DNA of 64,000 nt, taken from the NCBI GenBank assembly GCA_007449985.2, contig VIIQ02000027.1, positions 193,501 to 257,500 of the forward strand. Reading direction: 5' to 3'. Below the pieces are notes generated by a model that ran no database searches, was not told the origin of the DNA, and worked only from the letters and a program-made list of their open reading frames with translations. The stretch is from Desmodesmus armatus (Eukaryota > Chlorophyta > Chlorophyceae > Sphaeropleales > Scenedesmaceae). A program made the position numbers and the translations under genes. Below are positions 2,489-43,827 of this stretch, piece by piece (the stretch's first letter is position 1; each line of letters opens with the position of its first letter).

Positions 2489-2720
2489 GGCGGGCAGTGC
2501 TGCCGTTGGCTGGCAAGTCGATTACATTAGTAGGAGAGGCCAGCCGACGGTGTGGTGATTTGAGGGCTTGGTATCTGTATTTTTGTGTGAGACGGTCTTG
2601 TTGCTTTTCGGGTGACGAGATGGCCCGTGTGATGCCAGTGGTGAGGCTATGTGTGCTAGCAGTACAACCGGTGTGGACAAATGTGGTGAAGCAGGTTTTT
2701 GGCTTGCAAGTGCAGCGTGT

Positions 2721-2870
2721 TGCTTTGCAGATTTGCAGGTCCCCGGGTGGCTTTGTTTTGCTCTGTGGCCCTTGCTTGTGGATTATGCCCTATGAGCCTA
2801 GTTTGGCTCCAGAAAGGGCGGTCAGGCGTGGCCCTGACCCAGTTTAGTAGTAGTAGTAGTAGTATTGATT
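2721..2870 (+). repeat. Dispersed repeat ending in a (TAG)n tail
   Basis: The block with ATGCCCTATGAGCCTAG followed by TTTGGCTCC, a GGTCAGGC...CCCTGA motif and then (TAG)6TATT matches, in reverse orientation, a block at about 53087-53215. A unique sequence would not recur 50 kb away. The trinucleotide tail resembles the 3' end of a non-LTR retrotransposon, but no reverse transcriptase is seen, so this class is only an inference. Confidence 0.55.
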
Positions 2871-4679
2871 GATCAGGACGGGAAAGAAGGAGTAGGGGTG
2901 TGCAGCTGCAGGGGTGGCATGTGTCGGCTTCAGATGCACCGTGTACCGCAGTCGACACATGCCGCTGACACAGTTGACGGCATGTGTGCACGGCCATGTC
3001 TGTGATTGCCATACCACTGATGGCAGCACTGGGTAGGCTGAGCGTATTGTGAGCCTGGAGGTTCCACACGTGCACAGCTTGCGCAAGCTCATTGACGATT
3101 TATTTCATTGTTGACATCAGGACGGTCGGCCCAAGGGGCCCCCCTTGTGCTGTGAAGTGCAAGGGCAACCAGGCGGCAGTGGAAGGCTGCAGCACAGCTT
3201 TTGTGCAGCAAGCATTGGCTGTGTGATTGGCCCCGGTGGGAGGGCAGGACCATGGTGGTTTGGTGTGACAAAGTTAGACCAGCCTCAATGTCACAGTATG
3301 TCATAGTATTCATTGCTTGATTGGTGTATGGTTTGTTGTGCACCCATCAAGGGGCGCAGTTGGATGGACCTTGTGACAGGATACTGGGTGTGGGGTGGGT
3401 GCCTAGAAGTGGGGTAGTACTGATGTCTCACTGCCCTGGCTTCGTGGTGGACGGATGTGAGCAAGCGCCTTCTGCGCTGGCGACCACCCACTCTGCTGTT
3501 GCACGTGCCGGTGGCATAGAGCAATTAACCAGTGTGATTTGGCTGCCGCCGCGTGTATGTCTCGACTGTGCATCCATTGGACTCCCTTGGATGCATGCTG
3601 CGTGCAACTCCTCATGTCAGGCCCCCAGTCTACTGGCAGGGTGCATGTGGGTGTCGTCACCCTTGCAAAGTGGCTGTGAGCAGTGGGCTGCATGACTGCT
3701 CAGGCCGTATCAGCATAGCGTCTGTCCAAGGTTGTGCGCACATCGGTCAGCCCCAGTCATGGCATGACTGTTACTGGGGGTTGTGGCAGCACCACCTCAC
3801 TCTATGACTAGTGCCTCCAGTGGGAATAATTCACATGTGTGTACCACCTTGTGAGTCAGAATCGGGTTGAATCTATAGGACCTTTGCAGATGCGGAAGGA
3901 AGGGAAGGGGAGAGATAACTTGAGTTGGCTGCTGTTGGCCAACAGAGTCTTTCATGTGGTTTGGGCAGTGACTGCTTGGCGGCACAGACACCTACTAGGG
4001 GGGATCTAGGCTAGATCGATTGTATGTCTGCTTGGCATGTAGGGAGGCAGGGGCTCAGGGATTTCTGGCACTGGTGATGTCCTACACAACACGCATATCG
4101 TTGTTTCAGGAGTGTTTGTCAAGTGAAGCGGTGCCAACAACGCAGCTGCTGTGGCTGGAAGAGTGTGTGTATTGTGTGTTCAGTGCTGTGATGTGCACTT
4201 CGGAAGGGCCGTACTCCATCTGAGAGGCCTGTCGTACCCTTGCAGTCAAGAGCTACACCACATATCAAAAGCCGGCAGACACTTTGGTTGTCAGCTTGTG
4301 AAACATATGTTGTTGAATACCATGGTGCAGTCAGGTGTGTGTAGGTGAAGCCTCAGGGTTCCTGGGCCCTTGCAGGACCTGCTGCAGTGTTGCGTGTTCT
4401 TGCCGTGCCAGGATTCACTGTGCAGGGAGGGTGGTGGAGGCCATGGAGGCTGTGTCATGTGCGTGCAGACATAGGTAGATGTGTACCAAAAAAAATGCAA
4501 GCATACGACGGTACTGTCGGCAGCGTGGAGGCACCTGCCTGTGCAGATGTTGCCGGTGGTGTTGATAGGGTGATTGTTATGTCATGTGGACGTAGATTGG
4601 AAGTAGGCAGCGGTTGCATCATGAGGTATCCCAATCGGCCTGCCATTGCGAGGTCAGGGGAGGAAGTTGTTGGCAGAAG

Positions 4680-4721
4680 GGCGTGGGGGTGGGGGTGGGG
4701 GTGGGGGTGGGGGGGGGGTGG
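4680..4721. repeat. G-rich minisatellite (GGGGGT)n
   Basis: Direct repeats of GGGGGT run from about 4684 and end in a pure G run before GGGCAGGG. Such a tract could form a G-quadruplex. It is not within a recognised gene. Confidence 0.85.
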
Positions 4722-5888
4722 GCAGGGTGCTCGCCTGGTCTGTATGAGGCGCACTTGCCATCTGGCACAGTTGCCCATCTGGCACTGCCAGCTGAGTTGC
4801 CACCTGGCAAGGAGTTGCCGCAGGAAATGACCTAGCTAGGGCTGTATGTGGAGGATCGGGGTAGGGCGATTGCCGCAGGGATTTGTGCTGCAGCTGACGA
4901 TAAGGCTAGCGAGCCTCAAGATGTAACAAGACTGTGGCAATCTGACTGTGGGGCACGCATGCCAAGGGTTTGGGGCACTTCATCCAGCAGGCACGCACCA
5001 CCTGATGTATGGCATCCTGTTCATCGCGTTGTGTGTAGACAGCAGCACAGTGTGGATCATTTGTGGTGTGGCGAAAACAGCACATTACCTGCACCCACGC
5101 TGCTCAAACCATGCAACGAAGCCAGGCTAAACGAGGCTGAGCAACAGGACGAGCCAGGATCCCACAATCAATGCACCTTCTGCTTGCCAGCCCATGTGCT
5201 GGTGACTGGTGCATCAGCACCTGGTGAAATTCACGGTGCATGTGTGTTGCATGCATCAGGTATATCTTTGACTGAGCACGAGCAGGAGTGAGGGCGTTGA
5301 CTGAGGCAGAGGGGTGAGCATACAGTATAGCACACGCAAAAGAATGGGGCAAAGAAACACAAGCAGCGTCCACCAGCTTGTTGTTTTGCAAGGTGCCTGT
5401 TGGTGCCACTGACCCAAAGGCATGTCTGTCTACTGCCCTCTCCAGGTGCCGATGTCTGACTCAACCAAGCTTTGCTGAGATGATACTCTGTGTTCCAGGA
5501 GGCCTAGCAAGGGATACCTGAGTGACACAGCCAGATCACACTGTCGGATCACCATGATGTGGCCCAATCCTCCTTCTGGTCATCAACACGGACAGACGAC
5601 GGTGAAGCAATTACAAGCACGCAACCACTGTGCTTTTCTAGGGCGAAGCCTTCACATCTCCCATCTCTAAACCGCAGCCAACTGTAGGAAATACTTCGTG
5701 GAACACAGCAAAGCAGGGCCATCCTAGTGAAGCATTTGACGTTGCAAGACTTGCCGCTCTGCAGTTTTGCTCGATCACTACCCCAGCTCTCAATCAGCAA
5801 AGTCGACGGTGCAGTTGGCCAGCAGCAAAGGAGACATAGGCAGCAGTTCCCCGATCCTCACTCGTGACTTGCTTGCTTGTTCTCTCCC

Positions 5889-7468
5889 ATGAGTCTGGCA
5901 ACAAAGAATGCGTTTGCTGCGTTAGCTGACGCCAAGAAGAAGGCGAAGAGCAGCAGCAAGAGCAGCAAGGACAAGAAGGACAAGAAGAAGAAGGCAGTCT
6001 CAACAGATGAGCTGGAGAAGGCAATCTTTTCGCAACCAAGCATGAACATCAGCAGCTGGGCAGATGAGGACGACGACGATTACAACGTGCCCGTGCTGCC
6101 ATCGAACTGGGAGGAGCAGGTCGGTTGCGAGCAACGATAGGGCCAACGTGCCCTGTGCAGATGCTCAAGATGTGGTTATGCTGCAATCAACCAAAGTAAC
6201 CGGCTGTGATGCTTCTTGCTTGCAGGCCCATGGAGCCAACGGTGTTGCAGCTGAGGATGAGCATGAGCATGAGGAGCACAGCGAGGAGGTGCGTGGATCT
6301 GGGTGACCAGTATGTTGCAAGGCTCACAGGCATCCAATGTGTGCTGATCCCCCCACCTACTGGAGGCAGTTGGTGGCGTCCAGTATGCGTGCAGCCGCTG
6401 TTGCTGACCAAGCCACCATGCCAGCAGGGTTGTGCTGACGAGACAGTATCCTTCTCTGTCCTGCAGGAGGTAGACATTGAGCAGGAGCTGGGTTTGGAGG
6501 TGGCTCATGATGATGACGAGGATGAGGCAGAGGAGGAGAAGCATGAAGGTGGGCAGCAAACCCAGCAGCACCAGGGCCCAGTCAGCGTCGGCCAGTGTCA
6601 GTTTTGCGGTTGCAGGTCGTACTGCTGACAGTGCAATGTATTGTTGAAGCTTGCAGTGCCAGTCAGCATCTGCCAGTGTCGTGCAACTGCGCGGGGGTTG
6701 GTAGTGCAGGCAGTGTCTTCACTGAAACCTGCAGTGCCAGTCACATGTGTGCAGCTCTGGCATATAGGGTTTTCTCTTGATGCGTCGCATCTGAAGTTGC
6801 CTGGGGTTTGTCTGCCAACTTGTGACGTGCTTTTGTTTACTGCCGCTGTGTTGCTGCAGAGGCAGAGGAGCAGGCAGCAGCTGCAGCCCCAGCCCCCAAG
6901 CCAGCAGCAGAGCCAGAGAAGCAGTTGTCGAAGAAGGTGGGTGCAGTTGTGCCTACCATAGCCTGGTGGCATTAGGTTACTGCCGTCAGCAGTGTTACAG
7001 AGCCTGCAGCATGATTTCAGGAGGCACAAGCGCGGCACAGCCTTGCAGAGCCCGCCTGGTTGTTCGTGAGCAAGGCATGTGTGGTGCTATCGCACGGCCC
7101 AGGTGCATGATTTGCTTGGCGCCACACTATTGCAACGCATGTGGTGCCGCGGCTGGCTGTAGTGCTACTGAAACTGAGCATGTGCTGTGACCACATCATC
7201 CCTGCCGTGTCGGGGCGTCTCTGGCGTCGGGCTTCGGGCTTTGTCCTATTGGGTCTGCTGCCGCAGTTCGCAACACACCAGTTTGCTGCCGCAGTTTGCA
7301 GTTCTCCAGTTTGCAGGAGTGAAAGAAAAAGAAGAAGAAGAAGCTTGACGAACTTGATGCTGTTCAATCGCACCTGCTAACCTTGCTGCTGCCTGTATTG
7401 CCATTTCATGTGTCACTTCACAGGAGCTGAAGAAGGAGCTAGATGCTGTCATAACCCACACCAGCTCA

Positions 7469-7523
<55 letters not shown>

Positions 7524-8832
7524 TGTGTTGTCTGTTGTGTCCCACAGGAGCTGAAGAAGAAGGAGCTAGATGAGCTTGACGCCATCTTCAGCGAGCTGGG
7601 CATCAGTGTTGAGGAGCAGGCAAAGCGGGACGCAGAGGCGGAGAAAAAGCGCAAGAAGAAGGAGAAGAAGAAGGCAGCAGCAAACGGGGACGAGGCAGCA
7701 GCAAACGGCAGCAGTGCGGAGCAGCAGCAGCAGCAGCAGCCGGCGGCAGCGGCGCCAGCAGAGGCAGCAGCAGAGCAGGAGGAGGAGCCCAGCGGGGAGA
7801 CTGTTGACCCCGCAGCGGTGAGTAGTGCTGGATACCTTCAGGCTCTGCGATTGATTGTTGCGGCTTGATGCTGGCGCAAGCTGCAGGGAATGGTTGTGTC
7901 GCACGTCTGGGTGTTGAGCTTAGGGACTTTTAGCGCGAGAGCCCATGAGTGAGCGTTGATGCTCGATGCTTGCGCAAGCGGCAGGGAAGGGTCGGTTCGC
8001 GGGGGTGGGGGCGGTGTGCCGACTGGTTTGATTTGTCATTGACACTGTGCATGGTGTGACGTCACGAGCAGCCCAGTGGGGAGACTTTTGTCCGGCAGCG
8101 GTGGGTGCTGGTGCCTGCGAGTGGTCAGTATGACCTGATGCTCATATCATGCAAGCTGCCGGGGAGGGTGCTGTTGCAGGCTTGGGTCATTGTGCTGATC
8201 GGTGTGATTGGTCATTGCTACTGTGCACGGTGTTACTGTTTGGCTTACCGCCAAGCCAAACCGCTAAAGCACACAGTGCACAGTATTGATGACCAATCAC
8301 ACCGATTCGAAGTGTTGGGTGTTGGACAAAAAGTGCACCAGTATTCAAAACCAGCTGGCGGCATTCATCTGCATCAGCCTGGTGTGGCTGCGTCTACCTA
8401 TGCCTGTCTGTTTGGTATGCTGCTCGCTGGATGTCTGTGTGGTGTGTGGTACATGACATATTCTTGCTGTGTCTCTTTCTGCTGCAGGTGCGTGCTCGGT
8501 TGGCTGCCAAGAAGAAGGCAGCCGACAGCAAGAAGAAGAGCCTAGCTGCAGTGGCAGCAGCAGAGGCCAAGGCACGTGCGAAGAAGGCGGGAGCAAAGAA
8601 GGACACCAAAATTTCAACCAGGCTCCCACGCGGTAAAGCAGCTTGTCATGCTGCTTGTTTGGCTAGCAGCAGTGGCGCTACTGTGCAGCAGCCATTTGCC
8701 TCCTGTCAAAGCGCCGTGCAGGCAGCAGGTTGCTGTGTGTTGGGCATTCCCGAATGCTTGGAGGCACGTCCTCTGTTTTGCAGAGTGGGCAATCTCGAAA
8801 ACCGGGTCTGTAGAGATTTTTGGAGGTTGTAG
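5889..8832 (+). CDS. Lysine/glutamate-rich coiled-coil protein of unknown function
   Basis: Six exons fit in phase: 5889-6119, 6226-6288, 6467-6548, 6860-6936, 7548-7817 and 8488-8832, giving 355 residues. The start is the ATG at 5889. The N-terminus (about residues 1-45) is packed with Lys and Ser. An acidic stretch follows (exons 1-3), then a helical segment, ELKKKELDELDAIFSELGI (exon 5 start), a Lys/Glu helix, a Gln/Ala-rich linker, and a Lys/Ala-rich helix in exon 6. The first donor (GTCGGT) is weak. The last 55 residues may be intron or UTR, because a GTAAAG donor occurs near 8633. The charge pattern suggests an RNA- or ribosome-associated protein, but this is inference. Introns 4 and 5 contain duplicated exon ends. 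Confidence 0.6.
7416..7452 (+). repeat. Duplicated 3' splice site and start of exon 5 (decoy acceptor)
   Basis: CACAGGAGCTGAAGAAGG at 7420 repeats, apart from three bases, the real acceptor and first codons of exon 5 at 7543-7565. Use of this decoy from exon 4 would read through the (CTG)n tract and stop at the end of the intron frame, so it is probably not productive. Confidence 0.65.
7471..7522. repeat. (CTG)n microsatellite in intron 4
   Basis: About 17 uninterrupted CTG units lie just upstream of the polypyrimidine tract and acceptor of exon 5 of the lysine-rich gene. Confidence 0.95.
8066..8100 (+). repeat. Duplicated end of exon 5 with donor, inside intron 5
   Basis: GCCCAGTGGGGAGACT...GGCAGCG followed by GTGGGTGCTGG copies the last 12 codons and donor of exon 5 (7783-7830). 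Together with the copied exon start at 7416 this shows local duplication across the exon 5 borders. Confidence 0.6.
8198..8306. repeat. Imperfect foldback (inverted repeat, about 50-bp arms) in intron 5
   Basis: The left arm starts ATCGGTGTGATTGGTCAT and the right arm ends ATGACCAATCACACCGAT, its exact reverse complement. Further inside, TACTGTGCAC pairs with GTGCACAGTA and TTTGGCTT pairs with AAGCCAAA around a GCC-like centre. A third, single copy of the arm lies at about 8022-8058. This could be a MITE-like element or a local inverted duplication. Confidence 0.75.
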
Positions 8833-10934
8833 ATGCACAGGGCAGCAGTGCGTCAGGTTGGCAGGGCAGTTGCAGTGCTGTTTGTTTGCCCATGCAGCGC
8901 TTGCCAGCACAGCAGTCCGCAGACTGCGCTGCAGCAAGCAGCAGCACCCTACACTTGGTGCTGCGGGGTAGGCCATGCAGCAAGCTCCAGCGTGTAGTTG
9001 CACACATGGCTCCTGCCAAGGGTCTCTAATGGCTCCTTATAAGGGTGGTGGTGCGGGTTGCCGGGTGCATAGGCAGCATGGGCGGGTAGGCTTGTCAGGT
9101 CAGGCTCTCGACCTTGATCCGTGCACAGTGTGTGTTGGGTTGTCCTTGGGTAAAGTTTTGGGGTGGGGCTGGTGTTGCGTGTTGCAAGCACTTGACACGC
9201 TGCATGGCTGCAAGCGTGGGGGTTCACGTAGCACGTTGCTGTAGGCTTGTATTTGCATGGATGGGCGTGACACAGGCTGGATTGGCAGCAGCATGAAGCG
9301 GTGCATGCTGTATGAGGCTGCGCACAGCTGATCGTCCCTGCCCAAGTTTGCCTGCTACCTAAGCCTATGCCTGTGCCGCTGTGGGTTCTCTTGGTTTCAG
9401 ACTCCATGGAGCCAGTCAGGCAGGGGGCTGAGTGGGTGCGCGGGTGCTTTCGTATTCCCTGGGGACGCAGGAGGCCTGCATGCAGTGTGTTGTGTTTCGT
9501 TGGTTGTCGTTGGTTGTCGGGGTATCAGTACAGCTGGAGGAAGATGATTGTGCAGGCTGTGTGCAGGCTGTGGGTAGGTGCCAGCTGGCTGCACACAGTG
9601 GCACTGTCAGCACAGTGTCATCGGATGGCAGTTATATGGCGCAGCCCGCGTGCGGGCTGTTGCAGCGTCAGCAGCTGTCACACGGCTACTTCAGAGCCTG
9701 CTGTTTGTTGGCTGCTGTCTGGTGTGGCTGTCAGCCATCCCAGGACGATGGCCAGGTGTCTCTTGGGTACGATCGTTGCAGGACTCGGTGCTTGGCAGGT
9801 TACTCAGGTAGTGAAGCGGACAACATCAGAACTCTGTTGCACAGCTTTTGATCATGTACAGCTGCTCGATATGTGGCCAGGACCGGGATGATAGCAGGCT
9901 CGCTGTGCCTGTGGCCACTCCTGTGGTGTGTCTGCTGCACCCCGCCACTGCCAGTGCTGCCTTTGAATGGCCTGTGTTGGGGCGTGGAGGCATGCTGTGT
10001 GCAGGCGTATGGCCAGCTTTTCCTGCAGCGCTGCTGCCCTTTACTTTTCTTGTGGACTGCTCAAGCTTGTCAGCATGCAGCCCTCTTGCTGCAGTGTGTT
10101 GTACCGGCTGGGTTTGTGCATAGAGGAAAGAAAGCAGTGTGGGGTGGCAGGACCGCGGTTTTTCCCTGGCGGCGTCGGGCTCCTCTGCAACGTCTTTGAA
10201 ATGATGTTCGAGTTGGTGGCTTGCTGCTACCAACATGCAGGCCTGTTGCTGCCTGCCCCTGTCTCTGGAATCCTGATCGAGATGCATGTAACAATGTGAC
10301 CCTTTCTAGCCTCAGCCATGTGCTTTTGTGTGGCGGTAAGCTGCGGTTCAAGTGCACGCCGCAGCGCCGGATGGTATGGTAGGAGTGGGCAGTCTTGGTT
10401 GGCATCAGCTGTGCTGGACTTGCTAGAGCAGGTTGCTGCAGCAGCTGACTTGAAGACACTGCAGTTGGCAGGCTGTTCCCGTCTTGCTGTTTGCACAACA
10501 TCCAATGCGCCATCGGCGCTGTGAGCATGCAGCTGTCTGGGACAGCAGGGGTTGAGGGGCAACCAACGGGCTGGCACCGCTGCAGGTGGCAATCGCAGAA
10601 AGGGTAGTTTGAGCTCACAAGATACTCTGGGTGCTAGACAGGAGGTTGGAATATTTTTTGTGTACAGCAAGCACCAGCAGTGCTGAGCACTGTCCATCTG
10701 CCAGGAAGTTCTGTCACTCACCCGAGCTCCCTTCTTGTTGGCAACTGAACCTCCGAGTGACAACGCATCAGAAGCCCGCACAACGTATTATGATACCAAC
10801 ATGCTGGATTTGAAGACATTTGGGACCAGGTTGCTTCGACCAGGCCACAGTCAGGCATTCATCCGAGCTGCTGTGCCCATGCGGGACGTCTGCATGTTGC
10901 AGATGAATTCAGCTTGTTGAACATGGGGTGATGG
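8833..10934. other. Intergenic region, 2.1 kb, no gene recognised
   Basis: T/G-rich sequence with scattered open frames up to about 180 codons on both strands. None has a recognisable domain or consistent splice chain. The distal end should hold the promoter and 5' UTR of the glycosyltransferase gene at 10935. Confidence 0.45.
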
Positions 10935-20200: not shown

Positions 20201-21927
20201 CTTATGCTGGGTGGTCAACTGCTGATGAAGTGTCTGGAGAGCTCTGAACCATGATGCAAGCCGTACTGGCTTCAAAGCAGCAGTCCATGCGCTATGTAGC
20301 AGCCTCACTGCAGCTTTGGGTAGCTGCCCTCACCTGCATGTGTGTGAGGATGCGCTTCAGTGTGTCAAAGCCAGCCCCTGCGAAATCCTTGGTGCCAGCC
20401 ACTGTGCTGAACCTGCAAGGGTTGGTGGGAATGCCAGCGAGCGACGAGCGGCAACTTGGTATAATTGACTCATCAAGCTACAGGACAGCATGCACATCAA
20501 CACCACTGCTCACTGTAGTGTTGCTGGCAACTGCAGGCCCTGACAACTGCAGCATGGATCAATCAGGTCACAACAAGTCGCTGCCTCGACCTTTTCGCTG
20601 CCATGCAAACATCACATGAGAGCACAGCACAGCACACAGCACGACAGCGCAGCGCGTGCCGCCCTCCTTACTTGTCATGGATGACAGTCAGGCAGCTGCT
20701 GGCCAGGTCTGACAGCTTGAATTGCAGGGCATGGCCCAGGATTGTGCTGGCAGTGTTGACTGACAGCGCCTCCCGCACAAAGCTGTTGGCTGCGGATGAG
20801 AGGCTGGGGACGTCCAGCCTGTTGGCTGCATCCATCACTGCCACTGCACTGGGGAAGGTCAGGTTGCACTGGCCAGAGTAGAAGAACTCGATGATGGCCT
20901 GCAGAGCATCGCTGTCAACGCCCCACACTGGGAGCTCCTCATTTGCGAGGTTGCCTGGGTGGCAGGAAAGACAGGGACGTGGGTCACATGCTTGGAAAAT
21001 GAAGGGTTTGAGCAGGACGGCTGCTTCGCTTTTGCTGGATATATGTGTGTGCATGGAGAATGGGGTCGACTGCTGCTGCTGATGTGGGGTGGGAAGACCC
21101 AGCTGCATCTGCCACATTTCAACTGCAGAGGTATGAACCACATCAAACCCAATAAGCTGCTGCTGATGCCGGCTGACTGGTCTGCGTGCTGCGGTTCCAG
21201 GGGGTGCGCACCTTGTTCCAACATGTTGGCAAAGCGCTTGCTGCCAGCAGACAGGACCACTTGGTGGCACAGCAGCTTCCTGCCATCTGGCCCGATGACT
21301 GTGATATCTGAGAAAAGTGGCTTGTTGAAGTATTTGCTGAGCGAGGTTTGAAGCAGGCGCGTGTGGTCCACGAACAGGAAAGGCTGCAGCGCAGACGTAG
21401 CAGATGCAGGCATGAGGTCATGTGGCTGCTGCTGCGGCAATTTTTGTGCAGAAAGCCAGCCTCTTGGTGCAAGGAAAGATGCAGAAGTATACGTCTGGGG
21501 TCTGGGCACCCAGCGCACCGACGTCCTGGGTGCCTGTGTGCACTGCTGCAGTGGGTGTCTCCTGCACTGCTGTTGTACAAGTGGCTGGAACCCATGCTGC
21601 TGCCAGCGTGACCGCAAGCCCTCACGAACTCGAATAAGCCGCCCGTGACCAAAACAATAAGGCTGGCCCAGAACGGCGCTGAGCATTTTGTCCTGCCTCC
21701 TGCCCGATGCATGAAGGACTGCAGGACGGGATCCGTGCCCGACGGGCTGGAGGGCACATCAATTCATGCATCTAATGTCGTTTATCCCTTTCGTTGTGAA
21801 CCAACGTCAATAGCCCTTTCCTGAGGACTATCTGCTCTTTCGGCTCTCCCCAGCCCGCGCGCACTCAGCAGCACACCCCGCTCACCTTGACGTCTGTGGA
21901 AAGGTCCGTGTCTTCAAGTGACGCCAT
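17261..21927 (-). CDS. BTB-BACK-SBP fusion transcription factor (one-base break in exon 5)
   Basis: Seven exons on the minus strand: 21927-21886, 21383-21212, 20954-20672, 20412-20334, 20087-19024, 18701-18595 and 18368-17261, about 951 residues. Exons 2-3 encode a BTB/POZ domain (LFSDITVIGPDGRKLLCHQV; FFYSGQCNLTFPSAVAVMDA) and exons 3-5 a BACK domain ending near SVKELIDSSD. A long Ala/Gly/Met linker follows. The SBP domain spans exons 5-7: first zinc site C-x4-C...C-x2-H in CQVDGCNAD...KICEYH, second site CQQCGRFH...KRSC, then the basic signal RLLRHNARRRKR. The C-terminus is disordered. Exon 5 lacks one base near 19176-19190, within a G-run; phase 0 at both of its ends demands one extra base. 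SBP proteins bind GTAC-core DNA; BTB-BACK usually mediates dimerisation or CUL3 recruitment. Partner and targets are unknown. Confidence 0.85.
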
Positions 21928-35146: not shown

Positions 35147-35185
35147 ATGGATGCCATCACCATCTTGGACAGTGCCTTGGATCAG
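35147..35185 (+). pseudogene. MED27 copy 1, exon 1 (cut off by the insertion)
   Basis: ATG at 35147 followed by DAITILDSALDQ matches exon 1 of the intact copy at 56273-56311. In the intact copy the next bases are the donor GTGTGATCA; here foreign sequence begins and GTGTGATCA reappears only at 43828. Confidence 0.8.
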
Positions 35186-35255
35186 ACTGTCTTTCCTCCT
35201 GGGAAACTTTCCTCCTGGAAACTTTGCAGCAGTCGATTCGCTTTAACGGGCGCAT

Positions 35256-35320
35256 TTGTTTTCAGTACTATTACGCTCTATAAGTTAAGTAATAACTTGT
35301 TTTCAGTACTATTACGCTCT
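35256..35320. repeat. 24-base direct repeats near the left end of the element
   Basis: TTTTCAGTACTATTACGCTC occurs at 35259 and again at 35300, with start-to-start spacing of 41 bases. They lie 70-135 bases inside the left border and could be binding sites for a mobility protein. Confidence 0.85.
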
Positions 35321-35397
35321 GTAGTCAATCTAACAGTCAACCTCTAACTGTCAGGGTCGTCTTTGACAAGTTGACCCTGCTGCAGGTGTGTCCTCTG

Positions 35398-36239
35398 CTA
35401 TACTCCATATGACTTCATATGACTCTGCCACAGTGTTACACAAGACCCAGGTAGCAGCAACTCTTCTGCCACAGCACCCACTGCACCCCTGCCACTGCAC
35501 AGGGCGACTTTCCGTGCATCAACCTCTGCGCACAGTTCGTGAGCTTGGGTGGAGCACTGGCAAGCAACCACCGCCATTGCTGCTGCTGCTGCTGCTTCTG
35601 CTCTGGCTGCTCTGGCTGCGTTTTCTCTCTGGATTGCTGCTGCTGCAGCGGCAGCTGCTGGTGGTGGGAATGCTGCTGTTGCTCTTGCCGCTCTCTGGAC
35701 TGCTGCTGCTCCAGCGGCAGCTGCTGGTGCTGGCAATGGACGTGCTGCTGGGGGTGCGAATACTGCTGCGCTGGCTGCTGCGGCTGCGTGTGATGGTGCT
35801 GGTGGGGGTGGTGGGGGTGGTTGCGGCACGACTTGCGTGTTGACGGTTGTGTACAGCTGAAAACTGCTGTTTCCCTTCCGGTACCGTTCTGGGCACCACT
35901 TCACATTGACTTCTGTCACCGTGACAGTGGTACCATCCTGCAGCAAGAATGCCGTTTTCTGTTTAGGTCCTGCAAGTATGTTGTTCCAACCAACTGTCGA
36001 CGAGGTTACAATGCACTGGTATGCTTGTGCATTTCACCCACCTGCAGACTTGCTTTCAAGTTGTCCACCTTGGCAGCATCAAAGCAGAACAAGCCTCTCG
36101 TGCAGCTGTCATCCATGCAGTCAGCCACTTCCACCACCAAAAATGTGCTTGGCGATGTGAATTTACGGCTGGATACAACGTTGCATAGCACACTGCAGCT
36201 CCGTTCCCAATTGTTCACGTCAGCGACATTGAGATGCAT
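35398..36239 (-). CDS. Small protein with an RPA1-like OB-fold and Ala/Pro-rich tail
   Basis: Two minus-strand exons, 36239-36042 and 35937-35398, join in phase 0 across a GTGGGT...TGCTGCAG intron and give 245 residues. The first half follows the pattern of the single-strand-DNA-binding OB-fold of replication protein A: a hydrophobic strand after NNW, SSRK, TFLVVEVAD, a RGLFCFDAA strand, LQDGTTVTVTEVNVKW, and NSSFQLYTTVNTQV. The second half is poly-Pro/Ala with a few Cys. RPA-like genes are common passengers of plant Helitrons. The start ATG at 36239 is a choice; an upstream exon is possible. The fold call is by eye from strand pattern and weakly conserved residues. Confidence 0.45.
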
Positions 36240-37095
36240 GGTGTACGCTGTTGATGCACTTGTTGTGGTTGTGAGGATGTCAGGCCTTGCAGCATGTCGC
36301 AATTTGCATGTAGACTCGCGTGTCTGACTAGCACGTCAGCATGTCGGACTGCGACGGTGGAATGCTGTCGGAACGTCACTTCAGGACCACAGAATGCAGC
36401 ACTATGGCGACGCAGCTCTCTTATCGCCAATTGTCATTGTATTCCATCAAAATAAGCAGTTCTCGCTTACATTCACCAAAATGCCAGCGTGATACGCTCA
36501 GCGCGTGTCTTGACAGCAAGTCGATCGCACAATAATCAAGCACCGTGTTGAAACGAACAGCCGCTGGTTCTGTTGAACAATCGGTGCCGTTTTTGCACGC
36601 GTTGAGTGAGTGTGCGGTGAGTTGCATGGCAGCAGTGGTGTGGCAGTCTGAATGCACTAGTTTAACTGCAGTGCAACAGGAGACACAACTTCAACCTGTA
36701 TACAGCTGATGCCCCGAGTAGCGCAATACACTCAATTACACTGTCTACTCTCGTTGCCCCTGCAGGACCTTTACTGTCCCAAGAGAGCGCGAGAACATGG
36801 CCTGGTGTTCATTTGCATTTGGCCATGCGCCGCAGCAAGCACTGCATGCAGGTGGGGTGGATAAGACCATTGATTCCGTAAGGGAGGGAAAGCCATGCGA
36901 TTGGATCAGAAGTGACCATGGAGGGCTGGAGAGGGTGTGGGTTGTTTGGATTGGCTTGACGGGTTGTGCGGTGCTCGTAGCCTGTTGCCCCCCCCCCTTC
37001 CCCACCACACCACTGGTGATGGCATCCCCAAGGGGGCCTGTGGGACACCGTCATCAACCAGACAACTCCACCCGCTATAGTGAGAATGTAAACAG

Positions 37096-37410
37096 ATGCT
37101 CAGAATGCACCCCTGCTTGTTGGATGCTCTGTGTGCCTCACCCTCCCGCGCACAGGTTTTACCTCCAGATGGCAAGCATTGCATTGCTGCTGAGGAGGCA
37201 TACCTCATGCATCCGCCGCCCATAGGCAAGTCCAGGGCAACTGGAGAAGCCAAGTCTAGGGACAATGGCAAGCCCCTGCCCATGCGCCAGCGTGGACGCC
37301 ACGGCACTACTGCGCGCTACTGTGGTGTGTGCAGTGAGCCGTGGCTGTTCACCCCACGTGCTAACCTGCGGCAAGTGCAGCAGCAGCATTGTGTCCTTGC
37401 TGACCACACC

Positions 37411-37442
<32 letters not shown>

Positions 37443-40400
37443 AAAGTGGCCCAGTTTGGGGCCAGCACAGCCCGTGGCAGTGCTACCCCCGTGTGTGCCT
37501 AGCAGTAACGGAGACTTGGCACAGCAGCGCTACTCTAGACTGGCGGCATCTGCTGACAGTCCAAAGCTGTCTGCAGCGAAGGCACTGCTGCATCAGAAGG
37601 AGGATCAGTCTCATTGCAGGCAGCGTCCTCGTGTGCGTCAGCCAGCAGTAGTAGTACCAGCAACAGCCAGCCGGGTGTCAGCGGCGCCCACAAAGCCAGC
37701 AGCAGCAGAAGCACACACCATCGTGTCGTCAAATCGCTTCTCTGTGCTGCTGCATGATGCGCCAGCAGACGAGGAGGCGATGGACACTGCAGACGCCTCC
37801 GCATGTCCGGCACAGCAGTGCAGCACACCCAAGCAGCAGCAACAGCAGCAGGCACCCCGGCAAAAAACACCGGCAGCCGGCAGGTTGCAGCGGTCACGTC
37901 CTGCCCAGAGTAACCCTTCTGCTTGCAGTGGTGACCCCACCACAGCTGTGCATGGGCGATGTTGCCACAGGAAGCCAACCTGCGGCTGTCCCGTGGCGCA
38001 GCAGTCTGCCAGCACTGGGCGCCAACTGGGAATGGTTGTGGCGCTGTTGCTGCTTGTGGCTGGCCTAGGGGTGTTTGCTTCTACTACAGCAGCTTCAGCA
38101 GACATCGCTTTTACAGGCTATTACACCGTGCCAGGTTTTGGTGTTTTGGTGGTTGGCAACAGCAATGCAAGCCACGACTGGTACTGGTGTGTCACAGCTT
38201 GTGTTATATGTTCTGTGGTGTTTGCATGGGTTGCAATAGGCCCGTGCAAACGGCCTCTGGCGTGTGCTCTCTGCATGCGTCAGTGGCGTCGTGCAAGGCA
38301 CCTTGGCCGTGGCCTCATGCGTCGGTTGCAGCAGCTCTGTATGCGTGGTTTTGTGTGCATTGTGTTGATACGCGGTTTATTGGGTGTGGTTGCTGGGCTT
38401 GATTGTTTGGTACAAAATGGACTGCGTTCTGTGCATCTTGCTGTGTTGATGGGCGGCCCTGCAGCTTGTGCAATCGTTCTGCTTATATTTGCATGTTTGA
38501 GGGCTGCCTGTATTCATTTGAAACATAGTCATGTGGTGTTGCTCTATAACTGCATCATACTCTGTTTGACGTGCATGGGTGGTGGCATCCTGTACGGTTG
38601 TTGTGTGCGGGCATTAGAACTTGTCGTAGTTGGATACTGCTTGTGGCAGTGGTCAGACAGACCTGCACTCTTTGCACTGGTCAGCTGCTGGAGGACTTGG
38701 GACACGCCCAACAGCCGTTGTGCTTCCATGCACGGCTCCTGGCCAATGGCTATATGCAGTGGGGCTTCGAGTGAGTGTGTAGGCTCCTATGCTTTGCCTG
38801 CCACAGCTGGATTGCAACCCAGCCTGATTGCCCAAAATTAGATGACACATGAGCACATCAGCATACAGTGTGCGTTGATGCCAGCGCCATGCACTTCTCC
38901 ACTCACAATTTGTGACTGCCGTCTGCTGCCTGTTGCCGCAGGATCTGGTCTGGCCGCAGGACACCCCCACCCGGCTTGTCTACACAAGATGTCGTCGGCG
39001 AACTGACAGAGTTGCTGACGCCTACAAGAAGGAAGCCACGCACCGTGGATACCGAGAGCGAACACCTTTTCTTTGCGGCACTGAAGGCCGTGACAGTTGT
39101 GCCAGGGGCGCAGGCTCCACTGCGGTATAAACTGCCAGAAGCCTTCGAATTCTACGTGCGTGAGGTGTGGCAGGTCGAACACCGCTGTGTGTTGCCGCAT
39201 TGTGTGTCGGGCCGTGTTGCTAATGCATGGTTGACTGCATTGGCACAGTCCATGGCACAAAACCATGGCCAGCATGTGCTCAACCTGCCATTGCGCATCA
39301 AACGCCTGGTCAAGGCTGTGGTCTTGTGTGCATTCTGCACGGCTGGCCTGCCAAGGCCAGGCCGCAAGCAGTTTGGTGTGTTGGCTCGTGGCATGTCGGA
39401 TGGGTTGCTCAAGGGTGATGCACTGTCCGTGTTTGCAGCACATGTTTTTGAGCAGCAGCCTGGCCAGCAGCAAGCTGACGAGCAGCGTGTTGTGCTTGCT
39501 GCTTCTTTGCTTAGTGCTCCTGTGCACCATTGCATCAGCAGGCTGCAGCAGCAACGCCTTGCACAACAGCCTGCTCAGCAGACAGACCAGGATTACCTAC
39601 TGCCTGTGCAGCAAGGCACAAACACCATGAACTATATGCATGCACGCATCATAGAACTTGTGCAGGCTTGCAGTGTCATGCGGGCATCAGTGATGTTGCT
39701 GAAGGACACACTCTTTGCTGTTCAGCCATGCTCCACACAGGAGATGGTTGCAGTTGCAATGCAAGCGTCTCAAACAGCTCACCGCATCTGCGACTGGGCC
39801 GCGCACTTGCATGGCATGGCAGCACATCTTGTACCGAGCACACCAGACAATGTAGCCATTGTGTCACACCTGTTGGCTGTTAGCAGGCAGTCTCTTGGCG
39901 TATACAACCAGCTACAGCGCATTCAGCTCGTGGGTCATGTGACGGGGCCTGTGTCCCATGCTGGTATTTTGCACGCCCGTTCGGCGTCTGCTTTTGCACT
40001 AGAAGGCAGCAACAATGCATGCCTGCATGTCAGCACCGCATGTGCCTACATCAACAGCCTTGCAACAGCAACGACAGTGGCAGATGCGGCAGTGGCAGGA
40101 GAGGCAGTAGCAGCAGCACAGGCTGCTGCACCGCCCCCAAACACAGCCGCCATACCTATCGTATGCGGTCCTGCCACGCTTCCTATCAACACCCCAACAC
40201 GCCGCGACCCAGAAACAACAGCAGCACGCACCTTCACCAGCGCGTTGGTGCGTGATGTAGGGTGTGGGTTGCAGGCCACGCAACATGCCTTGCGCTGTGC
40301 TGTTGACCGCCGCAAGCTGGCGGCGGTTGCAGAGTGTGTGCGGAGTGAGGAACTGGCAGGTCAGCTCCACGCAACCCTGACTTCTACTTCCTCCGGCGAT

Positions 40401-43334
40401 GCTGCAGCTGCCCTGCTGGCCCCCTTGGCCAGGCTTTGCAGCAGCGTGTTGAACCATAGTATGCTGCGGCGTGGGCATGTCGTGCTACAGTATGCGGACC
40501 TACTGACGAAGCGGGACAGGCTGCATGCAGCACTTCAGCAGCGTCCACAGGGCCGTCCGCCACCCCCGAAGCAGGCGCAGACCCGGCAGCAGCAGCGACA
40601 GCAGCGGCAGAGAAGGGGGCAGGGGCAGGCTGGTGTAACTACTGTGGTGCTGCCGCCTTTGGCACGCGCACACCGCCAATCGCGGTGTGCTGCAGACAAG
40701 GCCAGCGCTGCAAGGAAGTACAGCGCGGCACAGACGGCCAGGAATGACTTGCAGCGTGTCCAGGATGCCTTGTTTGCGCGACTGCGCCAGCTGGCTGCCC
40801 CCTCTAACCTGCCCTTGCCAACCTCTTTGCAGCTGCGGCAGTGCTTAACGCAGTTGCGCCGTGCTGTGTGCCTCCTGGACACATGTGAGGCAAAGCTAGT
40901 CGAGGCAGCAGTGACAGCAGAGCGCTTGCGCGGCGAGGCGGCTGCAGTTGTTGCTGGCCAACCACACAGTCAGCAGGGACATCAGCCGAGCGAGGCGGCA
41001 GTGAGGGAGGCATGTGCATCTGCGCGTTTGTGCATGAGGTTGGCTTTGGATCACGCCCGTTTGGTGGTGCCCGTGTTAGGTGCGTGCCCGGATGCGCCAG
41101 TTGTGCCTGGGTTTGGAGTGTGGGCTACCACCCCTGACACGCAACTGAACGAGTGCGGTGACGAGGCCCGTAGTGTGTGGCAGTGGGTTATGGGCATGTG
41201 TCTGCAATTGCTATTGTTACTGGCTGTAGACGCCGATGCCGGGAGTGCAGCTGCAAGTGCTCCATCCCGCGCGCCAGCACCGGGATTGTTGAAAGGCGTG
41301 TTGCAGCAAGTCAACAAGATAGAGGCTCAGTGGCGCTCTTGTCGCACTGCATTGCAACGCCTCCCACATAGCATGACGCCGCATCCTCATTATGGTTTTA
41401 CACATTTGCACTTGACACCCACACTATTGGGTTTCCTCAGAAAACATCTGTCCGGCATGAGTCCCGAGGCACGCAATGATTGGCGGGTGTGGCGGCGGCA
41501 ACAGCGTGGTGTTGACCCACTACCCGTGCCTGGTGTTGACACTGTTGATGTCATCTGCGATGGTGCTGTAGAGGACATCCTCGAGAACAAGGATTTATTT
41601 AGTTTGTTGTTTGACCTTGACCGCTTGAGGGTCTTGTGTGGGGAGGGAAGGCCCAGTGGGAGACGCAGCTTTGCAAACCACCTTAGCACTGACTGTGTGT
41701 CGTTGCATGTGCATGCGACACACAACAAAGACGAGCGTGCCACCAGAAGCGCGGTCAGGTCTCTTGATGGACAGCAAAAGGCTCGCAGGGCCCGGCAGCG
41801 CGTGGCCGAGGCAGCTGCCCTGGACCATGCCCGGCAGGCCGTGGGCAGGGCAATTAAGTTGCCAACACCAGGCACAACCCCTGCGTATGTATTTGGCGGG
41901 GGTGATGATGACTGCAGCACTGTTTGTAGCACTGTGGCCGCTGCATCTAGATCTAGGTCAGACCATGTACGGGTACTGGACGGTGACTGGCGTGTCCTTG
42001 TGGCCCGCAATGCTAGAGACGGCCCTGTAGTCACGCACGTGCCCGCACAGGCCCTGCCCAAGCAGGTCAAGACAAAGCCGGAAGGCTTGGCACAGCATTG
42101 GGTTGACTCCCATGCATCTGACCCAGCAGAGGGTGCTTCGGTGGAAGAGTGGGACTTGGCAAGTGATTACAGTGTGGACAGGACTAGCTACGACTTTTCT
42201 GACTCTGACTCAATTGACAGTAGCTTTTGTGTGGAGTCCAAATGTGACAGTTGTGCGCCTACTGTTGGACAGCCGGCTCTGGTACATGGCAGATGTGTGA
42301 CTGTTGAGGCAGGATGTGGGCTGCGGGTGACTGGAGTTGACCCAGGTGTGACCAGCATCGTGACTGCGGTCACTGCAAACCATGGCGTGCGGGGCGACGG
42401 CACTGATGGAGGGGATGGCTGGGTGTATGCTGTTAATGGGAGGGAATACCGGTCTGCATGTGGGCTAGATAGGCAGCGCCATTGGCTGCATGGGCGTATC
42501 AAGCGTGCTGGTGTGGCACTGCTGCTCAAGCACTTGCAGAGAACCGGCGAGAAGCATGGCCAGCATGACGCCTTTGTTTTGCATGCACGTAAGGCCATTC
42601 ATGGTTTTCCTCAGTTGCATGCTGTGTACGGTTGCAGGTCTGCCCGGCATCACCGGTTTAGAATTGGCATGCTGCAGGACCGGCAAATGCACAGGATGTG
42701 CCAGTGCTTGGCATTGGGGCACACGGGGGTGCAAGGGCGCAAGTGGCAGAAGCCGATGGGTTGCAATGCAGGCCCGTGTGTCCCCCGGCCAAGTGTTGCT
42801 GTTGTTTGCATGGGGGATGCATCAGCAGGTTGGGGCGGGCCAGTGTCTCGGTCCATCAGTGCCCCTGTCATGAAGCTGAGGAACTTTTTTAGGGCACAAT
42901 ATGGGTCGGCAGACGGCGTGACTCGTGGTGGGCGCACAGACATGCATTGGGTGTCTGTGCACGAGTACCGGACCAGCCAGACCTGCTCTCGCTGCTATGA
43001 CGAACGTGGGCTGAAACAGCACCGCAGGGGACGTTTCAAGCTCAAGCAGTGTGTGCATGGCGAGGCTGTGTCGACACCTGACAGGTTGCGGGAACAACTG
43101 CATCATGTTGTGGTTGGAGAGGATAATCACTCGCGGCGTGTACCATTGGTCCTGGACAGGGATATCAACGCTGCCCGTGTGTTGACAGCCAGGGGGGTGG
43201 CACAACTGGTGCCTGCCATGTGTGTACACCAGGGGCAACTACAGCAGCTGGGACGCTGTGTTGACCGTGTGGTGCGCAAGGACTGGTTAAACCGGCAGCG
43301 GCGGCCACGACAAGAAGAGGGGGCAGCAGTGTAA
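37096..43334 (+). CDS. Fanzor RNA-guided nuclease (eukaryotic TnpB homologue), long form
   Basis: The core is one exon, 38942-43334 (1463 codons), preceded in phase by exon 38685-38770 (TCAG acceptor, GA/GTGAGT donor). The 5' part (from about 37096) has a Cys-rich finger (RYCGVC...HC), poly-Gln and disordered sequence; its splice junction is uncertain. The nuclease end shows RuvC-I in TGVDPGVTSIV (Asp codon 42339), a GDASAG motif where TnpB has the RuvC-II Glu (42813), the zinc-ribbon segment VHEYRTSQTCSRC (Glu 42963, Cys 42984 and 42993) and RuvC-III in LDRDINAAR (43155). The Glu 49 residues after GDAS fits the displaced catalytic glutamate known in Fanzors. The second zinc Cys pair is degenerate (QCVH). 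TnpB/Fanzor proteins cut DNA guided by an omega-RNA encoded at the element's 3' end. TGTAA overlaps the stop. Confidence 0.85.
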
Positions 43335-43580
43335 GCAGCGGCTGTGGCAGCAGCAGGGGTGTCGGCGGGGTGGCAGTGCACCATCAGCCAATCCCCGGTG
43401 GTGCCAGGGCTAGATGTGTGGGATCGTTTAGCAGTGCCTATTGGTTTACAATGTCGCTGAACTGCCCCGCGGGGCTTGGAGGTCCCCAGCAGAGGGGAGA
43501 CCCTCTGCTGAGTGGGGGTGGGGTGTTTGGGGGGGGAGGGGGGGGGGGGGAGTGTTTTAGTTTTGGCCTTACCATCGGTG
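43335..43580 (+). ncRNA. Candidate omega-RNA / structured 3' region of the Fanzor gene
   Basis: Within 180 bases of the stop are a 12-base palindrome, GCCCCGCGGGGC (43464-43475), and a perfect 10-bp stem, CAGCAGAGGG/CCCTCTGCTG, with a GAGA tetraloop (43487-43510), followed by a long G-run (to about 43552). Fanzor and TnpB guide RNAs arise from the region spanning the 3' end of the gene to the element's right end, so this is the expected place. No transcript evidence; the tetraloop hairpin could equally be a 3' UTR structure. Confidence 0.3.
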
Positions 43581-43780
43581 TGCCGGGCAAGATTTGCAGC
43601 ATTGTACAATTAGCATTGTCTGCAAGACTTTCAGTTGCATCCCTGCAAAGGGATTGCTTGCTCTGCGAAAGCAGGCAAGTTGCGCGTCAACTGCGCAAAA
43701 ACCGGCCTGTGCATCACTGGCTCGGTGGGCAGCCATTTTTTCTTTATGGGTCGAGTTTCTCCCCAGCTGCCCATGAAGAA

Positions 43781-43812
43781 CACACCAGGATACTTTGAAA
43801 GTTCCTGGTGTG
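43781..43812. repeat. Subterminal hairpin at the right end of the element
   Basis: CACACCAGGA pairs with TCCTGGTGTG and the inner ACTTT with AAAGT around a single G: a 15-bp stem with one bulged T. It ends 15 bases before the inferred border at 43827, the position of 3' hairpins in Helitrons. Confidence 0.8.
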
Positions 43813-43827
43813 ACTATTCAGCTACCG

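Follow-up and report, generated by a model that had tools for sequence, protein, structure and literature searches.

A probable Fanzor1-carrying, Helitron2-like element in a green alga

We analysed a 64,000-nucleotide stretch of the Desmodesmus armatus genome (C24:193501-257500, hereafter the window), using the 116 Mb, 831-contig assembly for genome-wide searches. Its plus strand holds one copy of a mobile element with a very long gene whose last exon encodes what we take, by motifs and profiles, to be a Fanzor1-type nuclease, and the whole is probably a Fanzor1-carrying, Helitron2-like transposable element. The copies form a recently spread family with defined ends that inserts at the side of AGATC(A), and the C-terminal part of the protein has the catalytic motif set of TnpB/Fanzor. 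Element copies are named after their contigs (C3, C96 and so on; the window copy is C24), and we retrieved ten others for comparison with the window copy, in which the following features lie:

35180-43820, plus strand: the mobile element from end to end, measuring 8.64 kb in this copy (C3: 9,536 bp); copies have shared ends and differing flanks
35180-35221, plus strand: 5' end GATCAGACTGTC, then two small hairpins of the form TTTCC-loop-GGAAA (one hairpin in some other copies)
37096-38681, plus strand: exon A, truncated, with a Gln/Ala-rich stretch and several hydrophobic segments; about 0.6 kb longer in C3
38682-38687, plus strand: deletion scar CAGCTG (loss of about 0.9 kb; segment present in all ten other copies)
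38682-38770, plus strand: exon B remnant; the C3 counterpart is element 4345-4492
38771-38941, plus strand: predicted intron GTGAGT...CGCAG, a phase-consistent GT-AG intron of the three-exon model
38942-43334, plus strand: last exon (exon C), with a long Ala/Gln-rich part, then a C-terminal Fanzor core of about 700 amino acids; ratio of nonsynonymous to synonymous substitution rates (dN/dS) about 0.4 between the two main subfamilies
41688-41702, plus strand: TDCVS at the place of the TDG motif of the Fanzor1 WED domain, by alignment with relatives
42339-42347, plus strand: DPG of RuvC-I, whose Asp (42339) is putatively catalytic
42963-42995, plus strand: relocated Glu of the E-x6-CxxC arrangement, followed by CSRC as the first zinc pair, in EYRTSQTCSRC
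43155-43178, plus strand: RuvC-III DRDINAAR, putative catalytic Asp at 43161
43625-43820, plus strand: strongly folding 3' end (-86.1 kcal/mol as RNA, z -6.2), a candidate scaffold of an omegaRNA
43781-43812, plus strand: 3' terminal hairpin ACTATTCA, 8 nt from the element end (DNA fold z -5.6; C3: -5.95)

The family has defined ends and near-identical copies

The right end (...GGTGTGACTATTCA, window 43820) is common to all ten other fetched copies, and the left end (GATCAGACTGTC..., window 35180) is present in eight of them, C103 and C122 reaching the contig end before it. Across the genome, the last 121 bp match at no fewer than 28 places (a 29th row matches in inverse orientation within one of these, and the matches of C739, C738 and C136 stop short of the last base), the left end gives at least 21 matching rows, and a search with the RuvC part finds at least 43 matching places. 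Shared ends, differing flanks and the right-end places bear out the initial annotation, which had assigned the gene to a mobile element. A frame of 1469-1472 codons is found in ten copies (C24, C3, C96, C103, C217, C562, C790, C737, C656 and C125); many further copies are fragmented or stop-bearing. C3 and C96 show a single difference in 9,137 compared bases plus four indels, a near-identity that points to recent movement, and this recent activity belongs to the family, not to the window copy.

Shortened copies also occur: C60, which contains no open reading frame (ORF), joins about 709 bp of the left end to 429 bp of the right end, and C752 joins about 36 bp of the left end to roughly the last 2.5 kb. 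Between C3 and C656, divergence is about 11-13% in element block 301-1200, 0.6% in 1201-3300, 3% in 3301-8700 and 0.4% in 8701-9536; the block pattern was read on C3 against C656 and C125, and C790 has the same divergent left block but is near C3 elsewhere. This mosaic suggests recombination or template switching between copies. Two further loci were observed. At C552:348862-348934, about 117 bp of the left end are fused to other DNA, and the right end is not among the matches listed; at C253:14682-18368, exon A is 99% identical and the start of the last exon only 75%, and this copy may be another recombinant or represent a second subfamily.

Insertion beside AGATC(A)

Among the 25 longest of 256 inverted repeats, none joins both element ends as a terminal inverted repeat (TIR), and inspection by eye of 16 copies with both flanks revealed no target site duplication (TSD), C561 having a possible one of 5 nt. 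Of 18 left flanks, 13 have GATC no more than 16 bp before the 5' end, versus 2.4% of window positions. The set consists of C829 and 17 of the 21 left-end rows, from which we dropped C552 (left end cut), C737 (at a contig end) and the pair C562 and C739 (duplicates of the C561 and C738 flanks).

The left side was fetched for three 5'-truncated or internally deleted copies, two of which (C6 and C718) carry AGATCA directly before a long duplication, a sequence that recurs immediately after the element 3' end, uninterrupted over 16 and 15 nt, respectively, and continuing beyond with gaps when read by eye; C829 keeps 24 bp of the left end and has no such repeat. By analogy with TnpB and characterised Fanzors (PMC10432273), the target-adjacent motif (TAM) would lie immediately 5' of the matching stretch. 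Since this stretch is preceded by AGATCA in C6 and C718, we predict AGATCA (or GATCA) as the TAM. The two ends are additionally paired in C3 by a 10-bp asymmetric inverted repeat, whose left arm GGAAACTTTC lies in the 5' end and which was recovered in 0 of 1000 shuffles and 0 of 207 control pieces.

No clean empty site was found. The C561/C562 left flank, with its doubled AGATCACACTG word, recurs element-free 2.4 kb upstream of the C561 copy (C561:196280-196520); it was rejected as a clean empty site, as its right side matches neither copy, and it documents only AGATCACACTG occurring without the element.

The last exon encodes a putative Fanzor1-type nuclease

The open frame at 38916-43334 (plus strand) comprises 1472 codons with zero stops, and the corresponding C3 stretch likewise has 1472 codons, against a maximum of 511 in the 300 dinucleotide shuffles that served as controls for frame length. 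The 4.4-kb main frame without an internal stop that had been described initially is real.

Fanzor proteins are described as having a RuvC-I motif DPG in place of D-hydrophobic-G and a catalytic Glu relocated to six residues ahead of the zinc motif, and Fanzor1 as having a TDG motif in its WED domain (PMC10711439). In the window protein, RuvC-I, a GDAS lacking Glu, a Glu 49 residues further on and RuvC-III were all found where the initial annotation had put them, GDAS (Asp at 42816) occupying the old Glu position and the relocated Glu lying at 42963. At the WED-motif position, P0004 and P0008 carry TDGVS, and the window protein and P0003 carry TDCVS (P0003 to P0016 being relatives drawn from a protein collection). 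Of the published Fanzor signature, D-X(125,275)-[TS][TS]xx-[C4 zinc finger]-X(5,50)-RD (PMC3627910), the D, TSxx, first CxxC and RD are present at permitted spacings, and the zinc finger is incomplete. In alignment A3 (14 rows), the Glu preceding CxxC is invariant, as are the two Cys of this pair, a third Cys and RD, and DPG is kept in 7/7 rows reaching RuvC-I (7 of the 14 rows cover the position). The second zinc pair is degenerate, in agreement with the first description: past CSRC the sole invariant Cys is that at 43050, it is followed by x-H-G in 11/14 rows, and the fourth ligand is not retained as Cys.

A profile search, proposed in the initial annotation, gave a modest PF07282 (zinc-ribbon/TNB domain) match for the window protein (E 5.7e-4, 20.4 bits, not reaching the curated cut-off of 26.3) that is consistent over alignment A4, all 13 rows matching at E<=0.1 (best 4.8e-6) and P0004 exceeding the cut-off (26.9 bits). 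A4 combined the window protein with 12 of 13 relatives; P0012 was excluded as apparently frameshifted. The model phrog_506 'transposase' matches 12 of the 14 rows of alignment A5 (best 9.9e-7); NCBIfam guided_TnpB matches the window protein at E 0.97, and among defence models only weak Cas12-type matches were obtained (best E 0.0085 for P0004 and 0.041 for the window protein). No relative was confirmed in the viral contigs searched, and plasmids gave a single weak tblastn match, a 'zinc ribbon domain-containing protein' (E 7), which was not used. In P0003, the closest long relative (77-80% identity), residues 1503-1544 form a RING finger (PF13920, E 1.6e-6) located after the Fanzor core; the window protein ends before that point.

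A three-exon gene model and its damage in the window copy

The gene model is a spliced prediction from the genomic sequence of the copies. In C3, exon A (1916-4118), exon B (4345-4492) and exon C (4664-9056) are separated by GT-AG introns with consistent phases and give 2,247 codons. Of 11 copies tested, four (C3, C96, C790 and C125; 2,242 to 2,248 codons) keep this model open throughout and six others break it, and the window copy reaches a stop after 579 codons. Misassembly of CAG repeats and runs of G may account for some of the breaks. The independent relative P0003 starts 11 residues past the predicted exon C acceptor, which fits exon C as the last exon. The initial annotation gave the protein more than 1490 residues: the unusual length stands, but the figure was too low, as the model of other copies allows about 2,245 amino acids. 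The proposed 38685-38770/38942 junction is right in phase; the exon concerned is what survives of exon B, its 3' part, the 5' part being deleted along with the end of the preceding exon.

Between 38682 and 38687, the window copy is missing about 0.9 kb held by 10/10 fetched copies, comprising the end of exon A, one intron and the start of exon B. With this loss and a spliced frame ending after 579 codons, the suggestion that this copy was recently or is currently functional is not supported. The window copy is probably dead as a full-length gene and, as a decayed member of the family, could serve at most as an RNA source.

Exon C has a dN/dS of 0.43 between C3 and C656 and 0.40 between C3 and C125 (point estimates from 56 synonymous changes and 74 and 69 nonsynonymous changes, respectively). 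Against C3, the Fanzor core alone gives 0.51 (C656) and 0.47 (C125), and exon C gives 0.59 (C790) and 0.54 (C737) on few changes; for the part of the N-terminal extension encoded by exon C, the ratio is 0.33-0.37 between main subfamilies. In exon A, dN/dS is 0.8-1.0 on few changes and clear constraint was not seen, making its status as protein doubtful if judged by selection alone. We keep exon A as coding because its 866-codon frame in C3 exceeds the maximum of 332 over 300 shuffles and because frames of at least 629 codons contain 17 of the 38 matching rows. Residues ~311-542 of C3 exon A include several strongly hydrophobic, membrane-helix-like segments. With about 2,245 codons, the model is almost three times the published Fanzor1 upper size of ~800 amino acids (PMC10711439), and the extension may thus hold a new function.

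Elsewhere in the window, a minus-strand frame at 20859-21758 has a BTB/POZ match (PF00651, 21.4 bits versus a cut-off of 20.5) and is possibly a host gene. A green-algal source is plausible from one DUF3707 (pherophorin-type) match, of a kind that fits a chlorophycean, and from the resemblance to Chlamydomonas elements.

The structured 3' end as a candidate omegaRNA

The fold of the 196-nt 3' end retains a z of -4.0 when the terminal hairpin is removed, and two windows upstream of the last 120 nt give z -3.8 and -2.8 on the plus strand and -2.4 and -2.5 on the minus strand. The ORF-less C60 retains the last 429 bp, and published Fanzor ghost loci are described as likewise retaining the right end (PMC10432273). 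This retention is compatible with an omegaRNA, but movement alone would require the same end. Conservation of the noncoding 3' end was rejected as proof of an RNA, since the stretch of low divergence already begins within coding sequence and divergence along the element is mosaic, and four Rfam matches, all under curated scores, were treated as chance. From this analysis, an omegaRNA at the 3' end is compatible with the observations but not proven.

Weighing the evidence and alternative explanations

Several observations weigh against a Fanzor1-carrying, Helitron2-like element with an RNA at its 3' end. The 5' hairpins are weak (fold z -0.8), and the asymmetric repeat has one arm 22 nt in from the 5' terminus and the other inside the 3' hairpin; the published Helitron2 repeat lies 0-2 nt from the 5' end and, on the 3' side, at 20-30 nt, upstream of the hairpin (PMC3627910). 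Five of the 18 left flanks, including that of the window copy, have no GATC within 16 bp. Scans of selected frames of the window and C3, in C3 the longer ones with a few exceptions, found no transposase domain; ten further C3 frames had no Pfam match save Rieske_2 (E 0.056), which was taken as chance. The genome does contain Helitron proteins (four Helitron_like_N matches, on contigs C135, C189, C637 and C153), which favours the Helitron2-like reading, but none of these contigs is among the matches listed in the end searches, remote similarity of ends being possible; the listed matches comprise this family and the C552 fragment alone. Because no autonomous Helitron with the same ends was found, we use the label 'Helitron2-like' rather than 'a Helitron2'.

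The same holds for parts of the protein and RNA evidence. TnpB-specific models are weak (guided_TnpB in 3/14 rows, IS607_TnpB in 2/14; best 0.012), and PF07282 gives zero matches at E 0.001 over the whole genome, which indicates that this generic model is weak on this Fanzor family. One phmmer and two profile searches of solved structures returned no Fanzor or TnpB chain, and AlphaFold models that might have shown whether Asp 42339, Glu 42963 and Asp 43161 share one site had a mean predicted local distance difference test score of 31.2 (712 amino acids, 13 rows) and 34.4 (336 amino acids, 14 rows) and were left unused. The last 120 nt fold with z -6.1 on the plus and -6.7 on the minus strand, and as the minus strand folds equally well, the fold gives no strand. 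Covariation was rejected as support for the 3' structure, the copies being too alike; the most diverged copy read, C1, breaks hairpin pairs by eye; and the low divergence of the 3' end, which reaches into the coding part, may stem from recombination.

The strongest alternative, though an unlikely one, is that of a dead or dying element, in which a fossil Fanzor frame is carried along by transposition after its RNA-guided activity was lost. The broken window copy fits this, as do the 6/10 other copies that break the three-exon model, the many further copies in pieces or with stops, and the loss of the second zinc pair. A fossil would not, however, be expected to retain 1469-1472 codons in ten copies, a dN/dS of about 0.4 between subfamilies, catalytic positions kept in every A3 row covering them, and near-identical copies at different sites.

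We also regard as improbable that the element is autonomous, its ~1,500-residue extension hiding a transposase or recombinase such that one protein both moves and cuts. The element has a single recognisable gene in 9.5 kb, its copies are as recent as C3 and C96 (1 of 9,137 plus 4 indels), a partner element with matching ends did not turn up in the end searches, that part of the extension encoded by exon C shows the low ratio given above, and exon C contains three HxH motifs (residues 297, 830 and 931), of which 830-832 is kept in P0003 and P0004. However, a lone HxH motif is common, exon A is without clear constraint, and neither exon A nor residues 10-495 of the last frame have a Pfam match at E<=10, the next 523 residues giving one weak match (DUF4519, E 0.26). 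Furthermore, the equivalent Chlamydomonas elements are described as non-autonomous (PMC3627910), and for Spu-1 the published account likewise reports no transposase (PMC10432273).

A more specific version, in which the N-terminal two thirds of a single ~2,245-amino-acid protein, whose hydrophobic segments may associate with membranes, form a new single-strand transposase and the Fanzor part re-cuts empty AGATCA sites, is a speculative proposal that we would not expect to hold; if true, TnpA and TnpB functions would be combined in one eukaryotic polypeptide. Known IS200/IS605 elements have no TIR and no TSD, and possess subterminal hairpins and a fixed 5' target word. That the element is of IS607 (Fanzor2) or IS200/IS605 type is very improbable: it too has no TIR, no TSD with both ends, subterminal hairpins and a fixed 5' target word, and the IS607_TnpB model matches 2/14 rows (best E 0.012), but the scanned frames of the window and C3 contain no serine recombinase or Y1 transposase domain, and elements borne by Helitron2 have been described as having long TSDs at their 5'-truncated copies (PMC3627910).

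A proposed mechanism and its significance

As a Fanzor1-carrying, Helitron2-like element, the family would move via a single-strand or rolling-circle intermediate. A Rep/HUH protein supplied in trans would start transfer at the 3' hairpin, and the 3' end of the element would be joined directly after a target AGATCA. The guide RNA would be made from the structured 3' end together with the adjoining ~15-20 nt of right flank, an assignment of scaffold and guide made by analogy with TnpB and characterised Fanzors (PMC10432273). The Fanzor would then cut the empty site at the TAM, (A)GATCA followed by flank sequence, and repair from a sister or homologous copy would keep or raise the copy number, as proposed for TnpB. 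Such TnpB-like re-cutting of the empty site, which saves single-strand transposons, has been suggested for Helitron-borne Fanzors (PMC10432273).

The family bears on the question of why eukaryotic transposons keep Fanzors. It offers a clean test case, as its copies are very recent, AGATCA predicts the TAM and the right end predicts guide and scaffold; the short ORF-less copy is a possible guide-only locus. Green algae are already known to carry Fanzor1 in elements of Helitron2 type. As far as the examined literature goes, what is new is the AGATC(A) target and the great length of the gene model; Fanzor elements specific for AGATC(A) and Fanzors longer than ~800 amino acids do not appear in it.

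Comparison with known systems

With TnpB of IS200/IS605 elements, the algal element shares a fixed adjoining target word as would-be TAM, hairpin ends and a C-terminal RuvC plus zinc ribbon; it differs in its repositioned Glu, its ~700-amino-acid core with a ~1,500-amino-acid extension, its introns and in that no TnpA was found.

Spu-1 of Spizellomyces punctatus, the element of SpuFz1, is described as ~2.1 kb long, with 33-bp TIRs, TA TSDs and a 633-amino-acid protein (PMC3627910). SpuFz1/Spu-1, as characterised by Saito et al. 2023 (PMC10432273), resembles the algal element in the catalytic D-E-D with the Glu beside the zinc motif, in an RNA region at the right end (shown for SpuFz1 and predicted here), in ORF-less copies with the right end, and in that a transposase has been found for neither. 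The algal C4 zinc finger, in contrast, is degenerate, and the algal activity is predicted from sequence alone.

Closest are CRe-1, CRe-2 and CRe-3, Fanzor1 Helitron2 elements of Chlamydomonas reinhardtii that target TTTT and have the same termini as an autonomous Helitron (Bao and Jurka 2013, PMC3627910). As described there, they too combine an intron-bearing Fanzor1 gene with a 3' hairpin in an algal element without its own transposase; their full-length copies have no TSD, and their 5'-truncated copies keep intact 3' ends and have variable, sometimes long TSDs, with a fixed target word just upstream. The Desmodesmus family, for which no autonomous Helitron sharing its ends was found, differs in inserting at AGATC(A) rather than TTTT, in the positions of its asymmetric repeat, and in a gene model of about 2,245 codons.

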